From assembly GCF_006716785.1 (NCBI RefSeq), contig NZ_VFPQ01000001.1, forward strand, positions 2,294,001 to 2,358,000: a stretch of 64,000 nucleotides of DNA, read 5' to 3'. The position numbers and the translations under genes are program-made. Positions 17,423 through 32,561 of this stretch are shown piece after piece. Numbering within the stretch: position 1 is the stretch's first letter; each line of letters begins with the position of its first letter. The stretch is from Thermopolyspora flexuosa (lineage in GTDB: Bacteria > Actinomycetota > Actinomycetes > Streptosporangiales > Streptosporangiaceae). The notes below the pieces were generated by a model. The model had not been told where the DNA came from. It did no database searches and saw only the letters and a list, made by a program, of their open reading frames with translations.

Positions 17423-17766
17423 CGGGCGGCGCGCCGCTCGCCGTACCCGTGGCCATTCCGTGATCGACTTCGGCGGCCCGGGCCGCCGCCGCGGCCGTGG
17501 GTTTGTCCCATCCCTTGGTAGCCTTCTGGTGTTCGCGATGACCAAGGCGGGCTCGCCGCAGGGCCTGCGGTGACCGGGCGTGGTGACCTCGCCGAAGGGC
17601 GCCCGCGCAGCGCGCCGCCCCTTCGGTCCGGCCCTTCCGCGGTCGATCGGGAGTAAACCGGTTGCCCGGCATCCCCTCCGAGGCCCTATACATGAAGGCA
17701 CGCGAGGCGCGCACCGGAGGCCATCGCGCATCGTTCAGGCAACCCTACGGAGACGAGGCCAGAACC
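17423..17766 (+). other. Leader region upstream of tyrS
   Basis: These 344 bases lie between the glycosylase and tyrS. An inverted repeat of about 9-10 bp with one bulge (17592-17601 with 17616-17626, enclosing a CG-rich loop) could be a terminator or attenuator. No T-box signature (the TGGNACCGCG-type antiterminator bulge) was found, and no further gene is supported. Confidence 0.4.
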
Positions 17767-19044
17767 GTGACGGACATCCTCGATGAGCTGGAATGGCGCG
17801 ATGTGATCGCGCAGACCACCGACGCAGACGCGCTTCGGAAGGTACTCGCCGAGGGCCCGATCACGGTCTATGCGGGCTTCGACCCGACCGCCCCGTCCCT
17901 GCACGTCGGCAACCTCGCCACCCTGCTCATCCTCACCCGGTTCCAGCGGGCCGGCCACCGGCCCATCGGCCTGGTCGGCGGCGCCACCGGGCTGATCGGC
18001 GACCCGAGCGGGCGCAGCGAGGAACGCCAGCTCAACCCGGTCGACGTCGTGGCGGAGTGGGTGCGCCGCATCCGCGTCCAGCTCGAGAAGTTCCTCGACT
18101 TCACGCCCGGCCCGACCGCGGCGCTGCTGGTGAGCAACCTCGACTGGACCGCGGAGCTGTCCGCGATCGACTTCCTGCGGGACGTCGGCAAGCACTTCCC
18201 GGTGAACCGCATGCTCGCGCGCGAGTCGGTCGCCGCCCGGCTCGCCGGTGACGGGCTGAGCTACACCGAGTTCAGCTACCAGATCCTGCAGGCGTACGAC
18301 TACCTCGAGCTCTACCGGCGGTACGGCTGCAAGCTGCAGGTCGGCGGCAGCGACCAGTGGGGCAACATCACCGCGGGCTGCGAGCTGATCCGCCGGGTCA
18401 CCGGCGGGCAGGCCCACGCCCTCACCGGCAAGCTCATCACCAAGGCCGACGGCACGAAGTTCGGCAAGACGGCCGGGGGCGCGATCTGGCTCGACCCCGA
18501 GCTGACCTCGCCGTACGCCTTCTACCAGTTCTGGCTCAACACCGACGACCGGGACGTCGTCCGGTTCCTCAAGGTGTTCACCTTCCGCAGCCGGGAGGAG
18601 ATCGAGGAGCTGGAGAAGGCGGTGGCCACGCGGCCGGCCGCCCGGGAGGCGCAGCGGGCGCTCGCCGAGGACGTCACCCGGATGGTGCACGGCGAGGAGG
18701 AGCTGGCCCGGGTGGTGGCGGCCTCCCGCGCGCTGTTCGGCCAGGGCACGCTCGCCGAGCTCGACGAGCGCACGCTCGAGGCCGCGCTCGCCGAGGTGCC
18801 GCGCGCGACCGTGCCCGCGCTGGGCGCGACCATCGTCGACCTGCTCGCCGAGTGCGGCCTGGTCGAGAGCAAGTCGGCCGCGCGGCGGACGGTGAAGGAA
18901 GGCGGGGCGTACCTCAACAACACGCGGGTCACCGACGAGTCGTACGTCCCGACCGCCGACGACCTGCTGTGCGGGCGGTTCCTCGTGCTGCGCCGGGGCA
19001 AGCGCTCCATCGGCGGCATCGAGGTCGCCGCATCCCAGGCGTAA
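17767..19044 (+). CDS. tyrS: Tyrosyl-tRNA synthetase
   Basis: TyrRS charges tRNA-Tyr. The 425-residue class I enzyme has the HIGH-equivalent [10 protein letters not shown], the tyrosine-binding region [21 protein letters not shown], and the KMSKS-equivalent KFGKT in [16 protein letters not shown]-terminal S4 RNA-binding domain covers about 355-420. The GTG at 17767 gives [12 protein letters not shown], the normal start; the frame stays open to 17662 but without family sequence. The same tyrS-then-rRNA order is known in fast-growing mycobacteria (rrnB). Confidence 0.95.
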
Positions 19045-19829: not shown

Positions 19830-19965
19830 GTGCATGAGCTTTACCCCGTCATGCCAGGCGCTGCTCGGCAAGCCCTTCCGGGGCTTTGCTGAGAGGTGTG
19901 TCTGGGTGATGGTTTTGCTGGGATGTCCCTCTTCGTGGGGGGTGTCTCAAGGGTTTTGAGGCATC

Positions 19966-25318
<5,353 letters not shown>

Positions 25319-25442
25319 GCATACGGAGCATGCGGCGCCGCATGGGTGGTGGCGTGTTCCGTGGTTTGCAGGGCGTTTCGTGTTCGCTGTGTGGTTCTCG
25401 AGCAGCAACCGGCCGTGTGGCTGTTGTTGTTCTTTGGGTGTC

Positions 25443-25560
25443 GTTTCGGTGGTTATGGCGGAAGGGAAACACCCGGTTACATTCCGAACCCGGTAGTTAA
25501 GCCTTCCTGCGCCGATGGTACTGCACCTTGGGGGGTGTGGGAGAGTAGGTCGCTGCCGGA
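25443..25560 (+). rRNA. rrf: 5S ribosomal RNA
   Basis: The roughly 118-base gene shows GTTTCGGTGGTTATGGCGGA, CCGGTTACATTCCGAACCCG, GCGCCGATGGTACTGC and GGGAGAGTAGGTCGCTGCC. It follows the 23S gene after a spacer of about 124 bases and completes a standard 16S-23S-5S operon. Confidence 0.95.
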
Positions 25561-25573
25561 CGACTTTATGTGG

Positions 25574-25630: not shown

Positions 25631-25659
25631 GGCTCTGGGGGTTCCCAGAGCCCTTTTTT
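25631..25659 (+). terminator. rRNA operon terminator 2 (intrinsic)
   Basis: A perfect 9-bp stem (25631-25639 with 25644-25652) with a 4-nt loop is followed by C and six T residues. It is the clearest Rho-independent terminator in the window, in tandem with the one at 25574. Confidence 0.9.
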
Positions 25660-25956
25660 CGTTTCGTGGTGGCAGGCCGGCCTGGGGCGTACGGCGGATT
25701 CGTTCACGTCCTGGCCGGTGGGGCCGGCCGGGGCGGGTGCGCCGGGAGATCGGCATCGACGGTTGTTGGGCCTTGCTAGGCTGGTATGGCCGGGCCACCC
25801 GAGGGGTGGCCTTCATCGCGTCAGACCAGTCAAGGCGGGACGGCGTCGAGCGAACGGGGCCAGTACCCCGCGGTCAAGTCCACCCGCATACCCATAGACG
25901 GCTGCCCGCGCGCGTATCACTGAACGGACGTGCTGGGCGGGCAACGAAGGACAGAA
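25660..25956 (+). other. Intergenic region before the TPR gene
   Basis: Nothing protein-coding is supported. An 8-bp hairpin (25793-25800 with 25804-25811) lies in the probable 5' untranslated region of the next gene, after a weak -10-like TAGGCT at 25777. Confidence 0.4.
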
Positions 25957-28038
25957 GTGAACAGAGAGAACGGGCGCGAGGACGTAGGACGGCCCGACAA
26001 GGGCGGCTCCCGATCGGGAGGCGCGAACTCCGGTCGCAACCGCGGGTTCCGCAACGATCGCGCGGGCGAGGGTCGAGGGAGGCGCGAAGGAGACGTGAGC
26101 CGTTCCGGTGAGCGCCCGGGCCGGCGTCCGGGGAAGGCCCCGCGGCAGGGCGAGCGATGGGAAGGCCGCTCGGCCTACGACCGTGGCCGGGGCCGTGACG
26201 AGCGAAACGGCCGCTACGGCGATCGCCGGGACGACCGTGGCGGCGACCGTGGCCATGGCGGCGGCCGACGAGGCCGTGACGACAACGAGTTCAGGCGAGG
26301 ATACGGCGGCGATCGCAGGGGAGGCCGCGACGACCGCCGCGAGTACGGCTACCGCGACCGAGACGACCGGAACCGTCCCGGCCGGTATCGCGAGAGCGCC
26401 GGCGGCGACCGCCAGACCGGGCGGCGCGACCGCTGGGACCGGGACGACCGTCCCCGGCGCTACTTCGACGACCGTGAGCCGGGCCGCCGGGAGTCCGGGC
26501 GCGGCCGGGAGGACCGCGTCTCCCGCGACCGCAAGGCTCGGCCGTTCACCCGGGAGGGCTACCGCGAGCGGGAGGAGGCCCGTGGCCTCCGGGCGCGGTA
26601 CGGCCGCGCCGAGACGAAGCCCGAGCCCGCAGCGGACGCCAAGGACGAGGTGCCACCGGTTCCGGAGGGCATCACGCCGAAGGACCTCGACAAGGAGGTC
26701 CGGGAGCGCCTCATGACGCTGCCCAAGGGCCTGGCGAACCTGATCGCCGTGCACCTGGTCGCGGCCGAGCGCGCGCTGACCGAGGAAGACCCCGACCGTG
26801 CGTACGAGCACGTCAAGGTCGCCCGCCGCTTCGGCAGCCGGGTGGGCGTGGTCCGCGAGGCCGCCGGCATCGCCGCGTACCGGGCCGGGCGGTACGCGGA
26901 GGCCCTCAACGACCTGCGCGCCGCGCGTCGGCTCATGGGCTCGGACGACCTGCTGCCGCTCCTGGCGGACTGCGAGCGCGGTCTCGGCCGCCCGGAACGG
27001 GCGCTCGAGCTGATCCGTTCCGTGGAGCCGGAGCGGATCGGACGGGCGGTACGGATCGAGCTGGCGATCGTCGAGTCCGGCGCGCGTCGTGACCTCGGCC
27101 AGAAGGAGGCCGCCGTCGTCACCCTGCAGCGGGTGCCGGAGCTGCGGGACACCGAACAGCGGCCGTGGTCGGCACGGCTCGCCTTCGCCTACGCCGACGC
27201 GCTCGCCGACGCCGGGAAGACCGAGGCGGCGATCGAGTGGTTCGCCAAGGCGATGATGTTCGACGAGTACGGCGAGACCGACGCGGCCGTGCGGTACGCC
27301 GAGCTCACCGGCACCGACGTGCCCAGCTACGAGATCGAGGACATCGAAGAGGACTTCGACGACCTCGAGGCGGGCGACGACGTCCGGCCACCGGCCCCGC
27401 CTGCCCGGACCGACCGGGCGGCCACGGAGGCGCAGGGCGACGCGGCCGACGAGAAGGCCGCCGCCCCGGCCGGGCGGGACGATGCGCAGCACGAGCCGGA
27501 GCACGGCCCTGCCCGACGGGACGCCGAGGCCGCGCTCGCCGAACGGGCACCCCAGCCGGACGACGACGCCGAGGACAAGGAGCCGACGGGCCACGAACCG
27601 GAGGATGCCGCGGACGAATCGCCCGCCCCCGAGCCCGGCGATGCCGCCGTGCGGCCCGAGCCGTCCGTGGAGCCGGCGGACACCGCGGCCCGCACGGACA
27701 CCGTGGAATCGGGCGAGGCCGGGGACGCGCGGAGCCCTGAGGACGCCGCCGACGCCCCGACCGAGCCGACCGCGGGCCGGACGGAATCCGTGGCTCCGGC
27801 GCAGCTCGACGATGAGCCGGGTCTCTTTGAGGAGACCGACGAGCCGCTCGATCTCGATGCGGAAGGGCCGAGCGAGCCGGGCTCCGGCGGCGACGCGGCC
27901 GGGCAGAGCCCCGACGCCTCGGTGAACGGGACCGCGAAGGGCACGGATGACGACGTCGTACCGGCCGACGCGGCCGCACCCGCTCCCGCCGCCGAGGAGG
28001 CGCCTGCCGCGTCCGTCCCGGTGCGGAACGAGGCCTGA
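25957..28038 (+). CDS. TPR-like protein with long charged disordered ends (Rv1691-like neighbourhood)
   Basis: The 693-residue protein has three parts. Residues 1 to about 225 are extremely rich in Arg, Asp and Gly, with many RD, DRR and RGG-like steps, and must be disordered. Residues about 230-455 form a helical repeat region resembling tetratricopeptide repeats (LPKGLANLIAVHLVAAERAL, AYRAGRYAEALNDLRAARRL, AIEWFAKAMMFDEYGETD). Residues about 455-693 are acidic and rich in Pro, Ala and Glu. In mycobacteria a shorter TPR-like gene (Rv1691) sits at the same place between tyrS and the HAD gene, so the middle part is probably the conserved core. The GTG at 25957 follows GAAGGA. The RD/RG-rich end suggests RNA or nucleoprotein binding, but this is inference. 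Confidence 0.8.
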   Translation: MNRENGREDVGRPDKGGSRSGGANSGRNRGFRNDRAGEGRGRREGDVSRSGERPGRRPGKAPRQGERWEGRSAYDRGRGRDERNGRYGDRRDDRGGDRGHGGGRRGRDDNEFRRGYGGDRRGGRDDRREYGYRDRDDRNRPGRYRESAGGDRQTGRRDRWDRDDRPRRYFDDREPGRRESGRGREDRVSRDRKARPFTREGYREREEARGLRARYGRAETKPEPAADAKDEVPPVPEGITPKDLDKEVRERLMTLPKGLANLIAVHLVAAERALTEEDPDRAYEHVKVARRFGSRVGVVREAAGIAAYRAGRYAEALNDLRAARRLMGSDDLLPLLADCERGLGRPERALELIRSVEPERIGRAVRIELAIVESGARRDLGQKEAAVVTLQRVPELRDTEQRPWSARLAFAYADALADAGKTEAAIEWFAKAMMFDEYGETDAAVRYAELTGTDVPSYEIEDIEEDFDDLEAGDDVRPPAPPARTDRAATEAQGDAADEKAAAPAGRDDAQHEPEHGPARRDAEAALAERAPQPDDDAEDKEPTGHEPEDAADESPAPEPGDAAVRPEPSVEPADTAARTDTVESGEAGDARSPEDAADAPTEPTAGRTESVAPAQLDDEPGLFEETDEPLDLDAEGPSEPGSGGDAAGQSPDASVNGTAKGTDDDVVPADAAAPAPAAEEAPAASVPVRNEA

Positions 28039-28058
28039 GTCCACGTCGCGACGCGGAA

Positions 28059-31071: not shown

Positions 31072-31503
31072 ATGGTGCAAGGACCAAACCCCGCGTCTGA
31101 TTCCCCGGGGCACGGACCCGGCGTGCCGAGCGGGGACGTCTACGACTGGTTCCAGCGCGGGGTCCGGCTCCTCGAGGAGGGCAGCCCGGCCGCGGCCGCG
31201 GCGCTGCTCGAGCACGCCGCCACGGCCGAGCCGGAGTCGCGGAGCATCCGCGAGGCACTGGCGCGTGCCCAGTTCAACTCGCGCCGGTACACGGAGGCCG
31301 CCGAGAACTTCCGCTGGATCGTGTCCGCCAACCCGACCGAGGACTACGCCTACTTCGGCCTCGGCCTGTCGCTGTGGCGGAGCGGCGACATGGAGGCCGC
31401 GCAGGAGCCGCTCGCGATCGCCGTGGCGATGCGCCCGGATCTGCGGCACTATGCCAACGCGCTGCGGCAGGTCCGCGCCACCCTGAGGGCGAGGCGCGGG
31501 TGA
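31072..31503 (+). CDS. Small tetratricopeptide-repeat protein
   Basis: The 143-residue protein starts with about 20 disordered residues and then has three helical repeats of TPR type: DWFQRGVRLLEEGSPAAAAA, AREALARAQF-like and DYAYFGLGLSLWRSGDMEAA. A strong AAGGAGG (31056-31062) precedes the ATG at 31072 by 9 bases. The stop overlaps or nearly meets the HAD start, so the two form an operon. This small gene is the second TPR protein in this stretch, and it occupies the place directly before the HAD gene. It is probably a scaffold or partner protein; the partner is unknown. Confidence 0.85.
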   Translation: MVQGPNPASDSPGHGPGVPSGDVYDWFQRGVRLLEEGSPAAAAALLEHAATAEPESRSIREALARAQFNSRRYTEAAENFRWIVSANPTEDYAYFGLGLSLWRSGDMEAAQEPLAIAVAMRPDLRHYANALRQVRATLRARRG

Positions 31504-32561
31504 GTCGGGAGGTGGACGTGACCGAGACCGAGACCAAGGATTCCGACGTACCGGATGCAGAGGCGCCGCTGATCGCCGGGTACGACGCGCTCCTGCTCGA
31601 CCTCGACGGCGTCGTGTACCTCGGCCGCGGGGCCGTGCCGGGCGCGCCGCAGTCGCTGACCGCGGCGGCCGAGCGCGGCGTGCGCCTCGCCTACGTCACC
31701 AACAACGCATCGCGCACCCCGGCCGCGATCGCCGACCACCTCGCCGCCCTCGGCGTACCCGCCACGCCGGACGACGTGGTCACCTCGGCGCAGGCCGCCG
31801 CGCGGCTCGTCGCCGAGCGGGTGCCCGCCGGCTCCCCGGTGCTCGTGGTGGGCGGCATGGGCCTGCGGCAGGCCCTGCGCGCGCACGGCCTGCGCCCGGT
31901 CTCCACGGCCGCGGAGAACCCGGTCGCGGTCGTCCAGGGCATCGCCCCGGACCTGTCCTACCCGCTGCTCGCCGAGGGCGTGCTCGCGGTACGGCGCGGC
32001 GCCTGGTTCGTCGCCGCGAACGGGGACCGGACGATGCCGACCCACCGCGGCGAGCTGCCGGGAAACGGGTCGATGGTCCGGGTCATCGCCACCGCCACCG
32101 GGGTCGAGCCGGTCATCGCGGGCAAGCCCGAGCCGCCGCTGCACCGCGAGTCGATCCTGCGCACCGGGGCGCGGCGCCCGCTCATCGTGGGCGACCGCCT
32201 CGACACCGACATCGCCGGGGCCAACCGGGCCGGGACCGACAGCCTGCTCGTGCTCACCGGGGTCACCACGCCGCTCGACGTGCTCACCGCGGATCCGGCC
32301 CACCGGCCCACCCACATCGGCGCCGACCTGCGCGCCCTGCACCGGCCGGTGGCGCCGCTCGTGCGCGACGCGGCGGGCTGGCGGTGCGCGGGCTGGACCG
32401 CGCGCTGGGAGGACGGGCGGCTCCACCTCGACCGGGACGAGACCGCCGCCGACCCGGTCGACGGGCTGCGCGTCTCCTGCGCGGCGGTCTGGGAGGGCGT
32501 CGGCGACGGGCGGGCGGACGACGACGCGGTCAAGGCCGCGCTCGCCGCGCTCGACCGCTGA
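31500..32561 (+). CDS. HAD-superfamily IIA phosphatase, likely glycerol-3-phosphate phosphatase
   Basis: This 353-residue HAD hydrolase shows motif I LLLDLDGVVYLG, motif II YVTNNASRTP, the motif III lysine in VIAGKPEPP, and motif IV IVGDRLDTDIAGAN. The type IIA cap domain lies between residues about 90 and 220. The mycobacterial gene at the same position, Rv1692, is a reported D,L-glycerol-3-phosphate phosphatase, and the length matches; the substrate here is inferred from that. The GTG at 31500 overlaps the TPR stop (GTGA). The GTG at 31518 has a better GGGAGG five bases upstream and may be the real start. A C-terminal extension of about 80 residues follows the HAD fold. Confidence 0.9.
   Translation: MSREVDVTETETKDSDVPDAEAPLIAGYDALLLDLDGVVYLGRGAVPGAPQSLTAAAERGVRLAYVTNNASRTPAAIADHLAALGVPATPDDVVTSAQAAARLVAERVPAGSPVLVVGGMGLRQALRAHGLRPVSTAAENPVAVVQGIAPDLSYPLLAEGVLAVRRGAWFVAANGDRTMPTHRGELPGNGSMVRVIATATGVEPVIAGKPEPPLHRESILRTGARRPLIVGDRLDTDIAGANRAGTDSLLVLTGVTTPLDVLTADPAHRPTHIGADLRALHRPVAPLVRDAAGWRCAGWTARWEDGRLHLDRDETAADPVDGLRVSCAAVWEGVGDGRADDDAVKAALAALDR

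Follow-up and report, generated by a model that had tools for sequence, protein, structure and literature searches.

The gene at positions 25957 to 28038 (forward strand) of the window, meaning the whole stretch of 64,000 nucleotides of Thermopolyspora flexuosa DNA analysed here, is best explained as a member of the actinobacterial orthologue family of mycobacterial Rv1691/MSMEG_3754. We tentatively read its product as a TPR adaptor of the HAD phosphatase encoded at the same locus, with an arm that binds polyanions and probably RNA (probability about 40%). The TPR solenoid would hold a partner by means of conserved charged residues. The acidic back tail, or the acidic linker of fused forms, would join or space the phosphatase. 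The arginine-rich, charge-blended front arm would touch polyanions, most likely RNA, weakly and at many points, and these contacts would set where the complex of TPR protein and HAD phosphatase sits. In the literature, mostly open-access and among the matches listed, no assigned function was found for this near-universal actinobacterial protein, and no account of the conserved front arm or of the HAD fusion. The disordered front arm, of lasting composition and for the most part under selection, and the phosphatase fusion in one clade make the function testable.

Gene and architecture of the protein

The reading frame encodes 693 amino acids. It starts with GTG at 25957 behind an AGGA-type site, and the coordinates and frame given in the initial annotation were correct. 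The start is common to many close relatives, not all of them, with openings such as VNRENG, VNRDNG and VNREDG that resemble the window protein. The mechanical ORF start, an in-frame GTG at 25930, lies upstream. On the minus strand an ORF of 743 amino acids (25813-28044) runs across the gene. The sense frame has a GC3 of 83-94% over a GC2 of 48-65% and, compared with the related locus L009, a pN below pS. Hence, the antisense ORF was rejected as a real gene; it is most likely a high-GC artefact.

A front of about 225 residues, a TPR-like core and about 240 acidic residues had been described, and this layout could be confirmed on the forward strand. Residues 1-226 (25957-26634) form the front tail, which is rich in arginine, glycine and aspartate, basic and, judged by composition, charge patterning and model, predicted to be disordered. 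The TPR core comprises residues 240-454 (26674-27318), as delimited by alignment, core model and fold matches. Residues 455-693 (27319-28035) form the acidic back tail, predicted to be disordered from composition and model, with the sequence EIEDIEEDF at residue 459. At the junction of front tail and core a stretch running from RPFTRE to RARYGR (residues 195-217; 26539-26607) is common to near relatives in the alignment. In an AlphaFold prediction of the full chain with a six-sequence alignment, nearly all residues of both tails had a pLDDT below 50, in agreement with the proposed disorder.

For the core modelled alone, a pLDDT of 86 and 12 helices of at least seven residues were obtained, and TPR solenoids head both the Foldseek and the VIA lists. 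Pfam TPR_12 and TPR_2 match the core at E about 2e-5, below the cut-off. The fold matches are generic TPR solenoids only and no function follows from them. Single-sequence search with E up to 0.01 gave no solved relative of the protein, and no RNA-binding domain was found in Pfam and NCBIfam scans at the thresholds used. Ten charged residues (R295, R300, E301, R321, R325, D338, E340, R341, R377 and D379) are shared by no fewer than 95% of the 105 cores in the alignment, which is probably more than a TPR scaffold alone needs.

The front tail contains 29.6% R, 19.5% G, 11.9% D and 8.8% E (net +24), the back tail 14.6% D, 13.8% E, 21.8% A and 13.4% P (net -53). The separation of charge along the chain claimed before was borne out, as the end-to-end difference in net charge was reached in none of 20,000 chain shuffles. 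The whole-chain 5-residue charge measure is at chance (z -0.3), and within the front tail positive and negative residues are interspersed more evenly than expected by chance (delta z -2.8). Thus, charge is separated between the two ends, yet blended inside the front tail. The described dominance of RD and RG steps has to be corrected: against shuffles of the same tail, RD (z 0.4) and RG (z -0.7) are at chance, whereas the orders DR (16, z 3.4) and GR (19, z 2.1) exceed it. RR is depleted (z -3.0). Across the front tails of 92 loci DR was also above chance (median z 2.0) and RD was not (0.2), an order preference without explanation. Among 659 ORFs of the own genome, taken by crude gene calling from 864 kb (the window and 40 stretches, one of which, L206, was chosen for containing Rho), the TPR gene ranks first for R+G+D in 100 amino acids (0.76) and second for acidity.

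Occurrence of the family

By core search the core was detected in 195 of the 200 order genomes (46 of 46 genera), in 223 of the 246 class genomes (95 of 104 genera) and in 81 of 198 genomes of the phylum sample. Some of the last matches are weak; outside the class they reach E 4e-4, and the orthology of the weakest is unsure. Within the mycobacterial family, a profile search detected the core in 119 of 121 genomes and in all 118 good assemblies. Most genomes have one core match; among the matches listed, at least seven class genomes have two. Thus, the core is present, mostly once, in nearly all genomes of the Actinomycetes. G224 and G297 (family f28, genus g71; compare loci L115 and L116) carry two copies of the core gene each. 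Profile re-search of 24 of the 27 hitless genomes of order and class gave one weak partial match. Two of them, G316 and G343 (family f27, genus g117), are one-contig genomes of 1.2 Mb in which the core appears absent by protein and profile search, unlike other small f27 genomes, which keep the core with its tail. The other 22 lie in 40 or more contigs.

The gene order is also that of the family. The window holds tyrS (tyrosine-tRNA ligase; 17662-19044, forward strand) as upstream synteny anchor, followed by the rRNA operon, the TPR gene, the HAD gene, an S4/FtsJ gene (TlyA-like) and a RecN-like gene. Amid this series lie genes on the opposite strand for a metallo-beta-lactamase-fold protein, a DUF1015 protein and an SCP2 protein. 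Rv1691/MSMEG_3754 of the lprJ-recN operon shares the core family, the upstream tyrS and the downstream HAD, TlyA-like and recN genes. These names presumably belong to our mycobacterial loci, a match based on synteny and on the TPR annotation in PMC7092591.

The mycobacterial counterparts had been called far shorter, and this holds: stop-to-stop frames of 281-323 codons were found in five genomes of genus g49. Their front tails have 49-94 residues with 15-23% R and an acidic back tail is lacking, whereas the window protein has both long tails. We tentatively take g49 to be Mycobacterium, as two of its genomes gave 83 and 106 matches to PE genes; three further genera and the E. coli control had PE matches as well.

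Fusion and linkage with the HAD phosphatase

The proposed partner is a HAD-IIA phosphatase with a GNAT-like C-terminal domain (31374-32561, forward strand), assigned to the Rv1692 type by synteny. For the Rv1692-type enzyme of M. tuberculosis, activity on glycerol 3-phosphate is described (PMC12722247). The phosphatase partner and its fusion to the TPR protein are new with respect to the initial annotation. In-frame fusions of TPR core, acidic linker and HAD domain were identified in 24 of 60 loci of family f6 (59 genomes), in six genera. This is not a frequency, as 15 of 20 regions had been selected because of their long open frames; L218-L247 represent the top 30 scores in the mycobacterial-family profile search, and L098 and L244, of one genome, are both counted. 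The fusion has one origin (support 95/99; 94% of bootstrap trees), and in genus g119 all eight sampled genomes are fused. In the fused L130 both the HAD and the GNAT-like domain are confirmed by Pfam. Each of the 24 linkers has an acidic net charge; for 19 of them the stretch as far as the HAD motif was measured, for five the first 60 residues, which in L258 extend into HAD. A front tail of at least 40 amino acids with at least 15% R is kept in 20 of the 24 fused loci, the others being L099, L129, L130 and L248.

Linkage is also close in the unfused f6 loci, where HAD lies 18-152 nt downstream on the same strand in 31 of 36 cases and 315-1266 nt away in five, the distances ending at the alignment start and not at the start codon. 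HAD is the next gene in mycobacterial loci, fused in six sister genera, and a separate gene in the window. Of the class loci, some of which are also among those of f6, 27 of 80 have HAD within 300 nt or overlapping; in the others it is 0.4-3.3 kb away or unseen in the stretch examined. Among the order loci none of the 20 has HAD within 300 nt. It was seen in ten within 4-5 kb downstream and may lie further in the rest. In L045, L060 and L063 the HAD gene follows the TPR gene at 3-4 kb and is encoded on the other strand; hence some members of the window's own family have a rearranged locus. In the window itself 3.3 kb separate the two genes, with the metallo-beta-lactamase-fold and DUF1015 genes on the opposite strand in between, so co-transcription is unsupported.

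From the fusion we infer a physical partnership in unfused species such as that of the window; because of the two intervening genes it stays an inference there. The acidic back tail occupies the position of the HAD linker found elsewhere. Against the adaptor reading count the distant HAD gene of the window, the HAD gene in only ten of 20 order loci examined, three of these on the opposite strand, and the near loss of the front tail in some fused members.

rRNA operon and possible contact with RNA

A 16S-23S-5S rRNA operon (19965-25561, forward strand) lies between tyrS and the TPR gene, and a terminator-like hairpin (25631-25652, forward strand) between 5S rRNA and the TPR gene. As had been remarked, the gene starts right after the operon, the 5S rRNA ending 395 nt upstream. 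An upstream 5S or 23S rRNA on the same strand was found at 16 of the 20 loci of the order, at 63 of the 76 of the class, 60 of them within a distance of 600 nt, and at 12 of the 19 from outside the class. No rRNA was seen despite at least 1.5 kb of upstream sequence at two, six and six loci of these sets, respectively, the rest being too short to tell. In L046 and L130 no rRNA intervenes and tyrS directly precedes the TPR gene; in L126 tyrS is located within 600 nt of it. For M. kumamotonense, rrnB was described downstream of tyrS (PMC10218544). The operon is best read as sitting in an old interval between tyrS and the TPR gene, that is, as inherited synteny. rRNA adjacency occurs also in tail-poor relatives outside the class, e.g. 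L144, L156 and L158. It is absent beside the tailed loci L062, L123 and L141 and present beside the nearly tail-less L143; thus, adjacency and tail are uncoupled. The neighbourhood therefore does not serve as the functional clue which the initial annotation saw in it.

Contact of the front arm with RNA is plausible. MSMEG_3754, given as Rv1691 orthologue, was chosen among the high-confidence proteins that co-purified with RNA polymerase after cross-linking (PMC7092591). The FLAG-purified protein gave no visible DNA, and the authors of the study allow that it may be RNA-associated; as the cross-linker was formaldehyde, the RNA polymerase pull-down is no demonstration of RNA contact (PMC7092591). 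MSMEG_3754 is also found in a table of the ClpC1 interactome (PMC10433963). N-terminal inserts of the Rho proteins of Micrococcus and M. tuberculosis raise RNA affinity, and the latter insert is predicted to be disordered (PMC8828861). The Rho of the window genome bears an arginine-rich N-terminal insert as well. It is the one gene identified among 18 other ORFs of the own genome over the thresholds for R and R+G+D, many of which look like out-of-frame extensions. The MSMEG_3754 data and the Rho parallel make RNA the most likely ligand of the arm, a claim that we hold less firmly than the partnership with HAD. It counts against the adaptor reading that there is no obvious reason for a glycerol-3-phosphate phosphatase to be located on RNA.

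In its best 100 residues Rho reaches an R+G+D of 0.52, compared with 0.76 in the front of the TPR protein. No homology of the front tail to the Rho insert was detected: the TPR protein has no Rho domain in Pfam or NCBIfam scans, and an own-genome search with the front tail returned only itself and one match at E 0.21, not Rho. The predicted disordered front segment is also similar to RGG/RG-type RNA-binding disordered regions: it is rich in R and G, has scattered Y/F and is low in hydrophobic residues. It differs from them in that about a fifth of its residues are acidic, so that it is charge-blended, and RNA binding is a candidate function.

Arm and TPR core may serve transcription or ribosome assembly alone, e.g. 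on nascent rRNA, with HAD as a neighbour of convenience. The recovery of MSMEG_3754 with RNA polymerase, the insert of Rho and the TlyA-like methyltransferase gene in the same neighbourhood agree with this. However, a HAD fusion of one origin, kept in 24 of 24 clade loci examined, hardly fits convenience, and rRNA adjacency is uncoupled from the tail. We regard this explanation as unlikely.

Arginine-rich tails are not selective for RNA. The arm could thus bind polyphosphate, acidic phospholipid headgroups or DNA and place the phosphatase near its substrate, which would suit an enzyme acting on glycerol 3-phosphate (PMC12722247). Among the analyses run there was no evidence for membrane or DNA, and FLAG-MSMEG_3754 came without visible DNA (PMC7092591). 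Another polyanion seems a rather improbable ligand.

Conservation of the tails

The tails were compared at 120 loci, 20 of the order, 80 of the rest of the class and 20 of the 64 matches outside the class. All counts are loci and not independent events. The start codon was set by a Shine-Dalgarno-like site, else as the first start; tail lengths carry error, and some tails take in upstream residues, e.g. L104. Among loci with complete 5' end, a front tail of at least 40 amino acids is present in 20 of 20 (order), 71 of 76 (class) and ten of 19 (outside the class). With at least 15% R and a positive net charge in addition, the numbers are 20, 69 and ten. At least one such locus was found in 32 of 34 families, a count including 5'-truncated loci; the remaining two families are represented by one locus each, L143 with a tail of 27 amino acids and L085 with an R content slightly short of the threshold. 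Among the loci outside the class, roughly half have front tails shorter than 40 amino acids, and D is scarce in the longer tails (median 5%).

A back tail of at least 20 amino acids was found in 20 of 20 order, 37 of 80 class and one of 20 outside-class loci, and a back tail with net charge of -0.15 or lower in 20, 36 and none. The class count sets aside three fused loci, and one tail among the 44 loci without stands at -0.12. Thus, the front tail is conserved in character in 32 of 34 families, the back tail only in part (36 of 80 class loci). The counter-case named at the outset, tails that are absent or vary freely, does not apply to the front tail and applies partly to the back tail.

Tail length ranges from 48 to 837 amino acids across the class sample, with repeats in some tails. 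In L072 and L089 the front tails consist of near-perfect repeats (SGGGRSYGPRSGDDSRGGDR-like and GGDRREGGFRGGDR-like, respectively), which suggests growth through repeat expansion. The front tail is nearly lost in L143 and the fused L099, L129 and L130, and in L093 by the chosen start. Across 101 tails, a higher R content goes along with more acidic residues (rho 0.75, ignoring descent); therefore, the net charge stays slightly positive. A motif like GPAFIEPDFGD, which looks like a docking motif, stands near the C-terminus behind the acidic tail in L010, L012, L017, L022, L026, L033, L036 and L049-L052. It is frequent in the window's family and not recognisable in the window protein or L009.

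The opposite net charges of the two ends would also allow the basic front and the acidic back to pair within or between chains and close the TPR groove until a partner competes. Front-tail and back-tail lengths are correlated (rho 0.62 over 101 loci, ignoring descent), which agrees with pairing. But 44 of the 80 class loci, including the five mycobacterial ones, are without an acidic back tail by the thresholds used; pairing thus cannot be the general role, and we consider it doubtful at best. Of slightly lower probability still, as a bolder form of the adaptor reading, the arm might hold the TPR-HAD complex on nascent or ribosomal RNA, possibly in condensates. If so, phosphate or glycerol-phosphate metabolism would be read out where rRNA is made, and each lineage would have adjusted the length of the arm and its charge blending.

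Selection on the tails

In 15 of 16 pairs of loci dN/dS of the front tail was below 1, and in 15 of 16 it was higher than that of the core. The only pair with a front-tail value above 1, L115-L116, exceeds 1 in core and tail alike, which is unexplained. In five close pairs of one genus, with shared members, the front tail had 0.10-0.18, compared with 0-0.06 in the core and 0.30-0.47 in the back tail. For the window and L009 the values were 0.48, 0.13 and 0.69, respectively. dN/dS of the back tail exceeds that of the front tail in nine of 11 pairs and lies at 0.30-0.73 in ten of them. Hence, the front tail is mostly under purifying selection and the back tail is less constrained.

The G content of the front tail tracks the GC content of the locus (rho 0.47, ignoring descent). 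Five f27 genomes have a GC content of 47-51%; their tails contain 16-22% R and 0-4% K, their cores 8-10% R and 4-5% K. The preference for R over K persists at this GC content; thus, the arginine of the front tail cannot be put down to high GC alone. That both tails are tolerated low-complexity filler from repeat slippage in GC-rich DNA, as the variable tail length, the repeats in some tails, the back-tail dN/dS and the dependence of G on GC might suggest, is the least probable explanation and already disfavoured by the front-tail composition kept in nearly all families, its dN/dS well below 1 in most pairs, R kept over K at 47-51% GC and charge blending beyond chance (z below -2) in 62% of 92 front tails.
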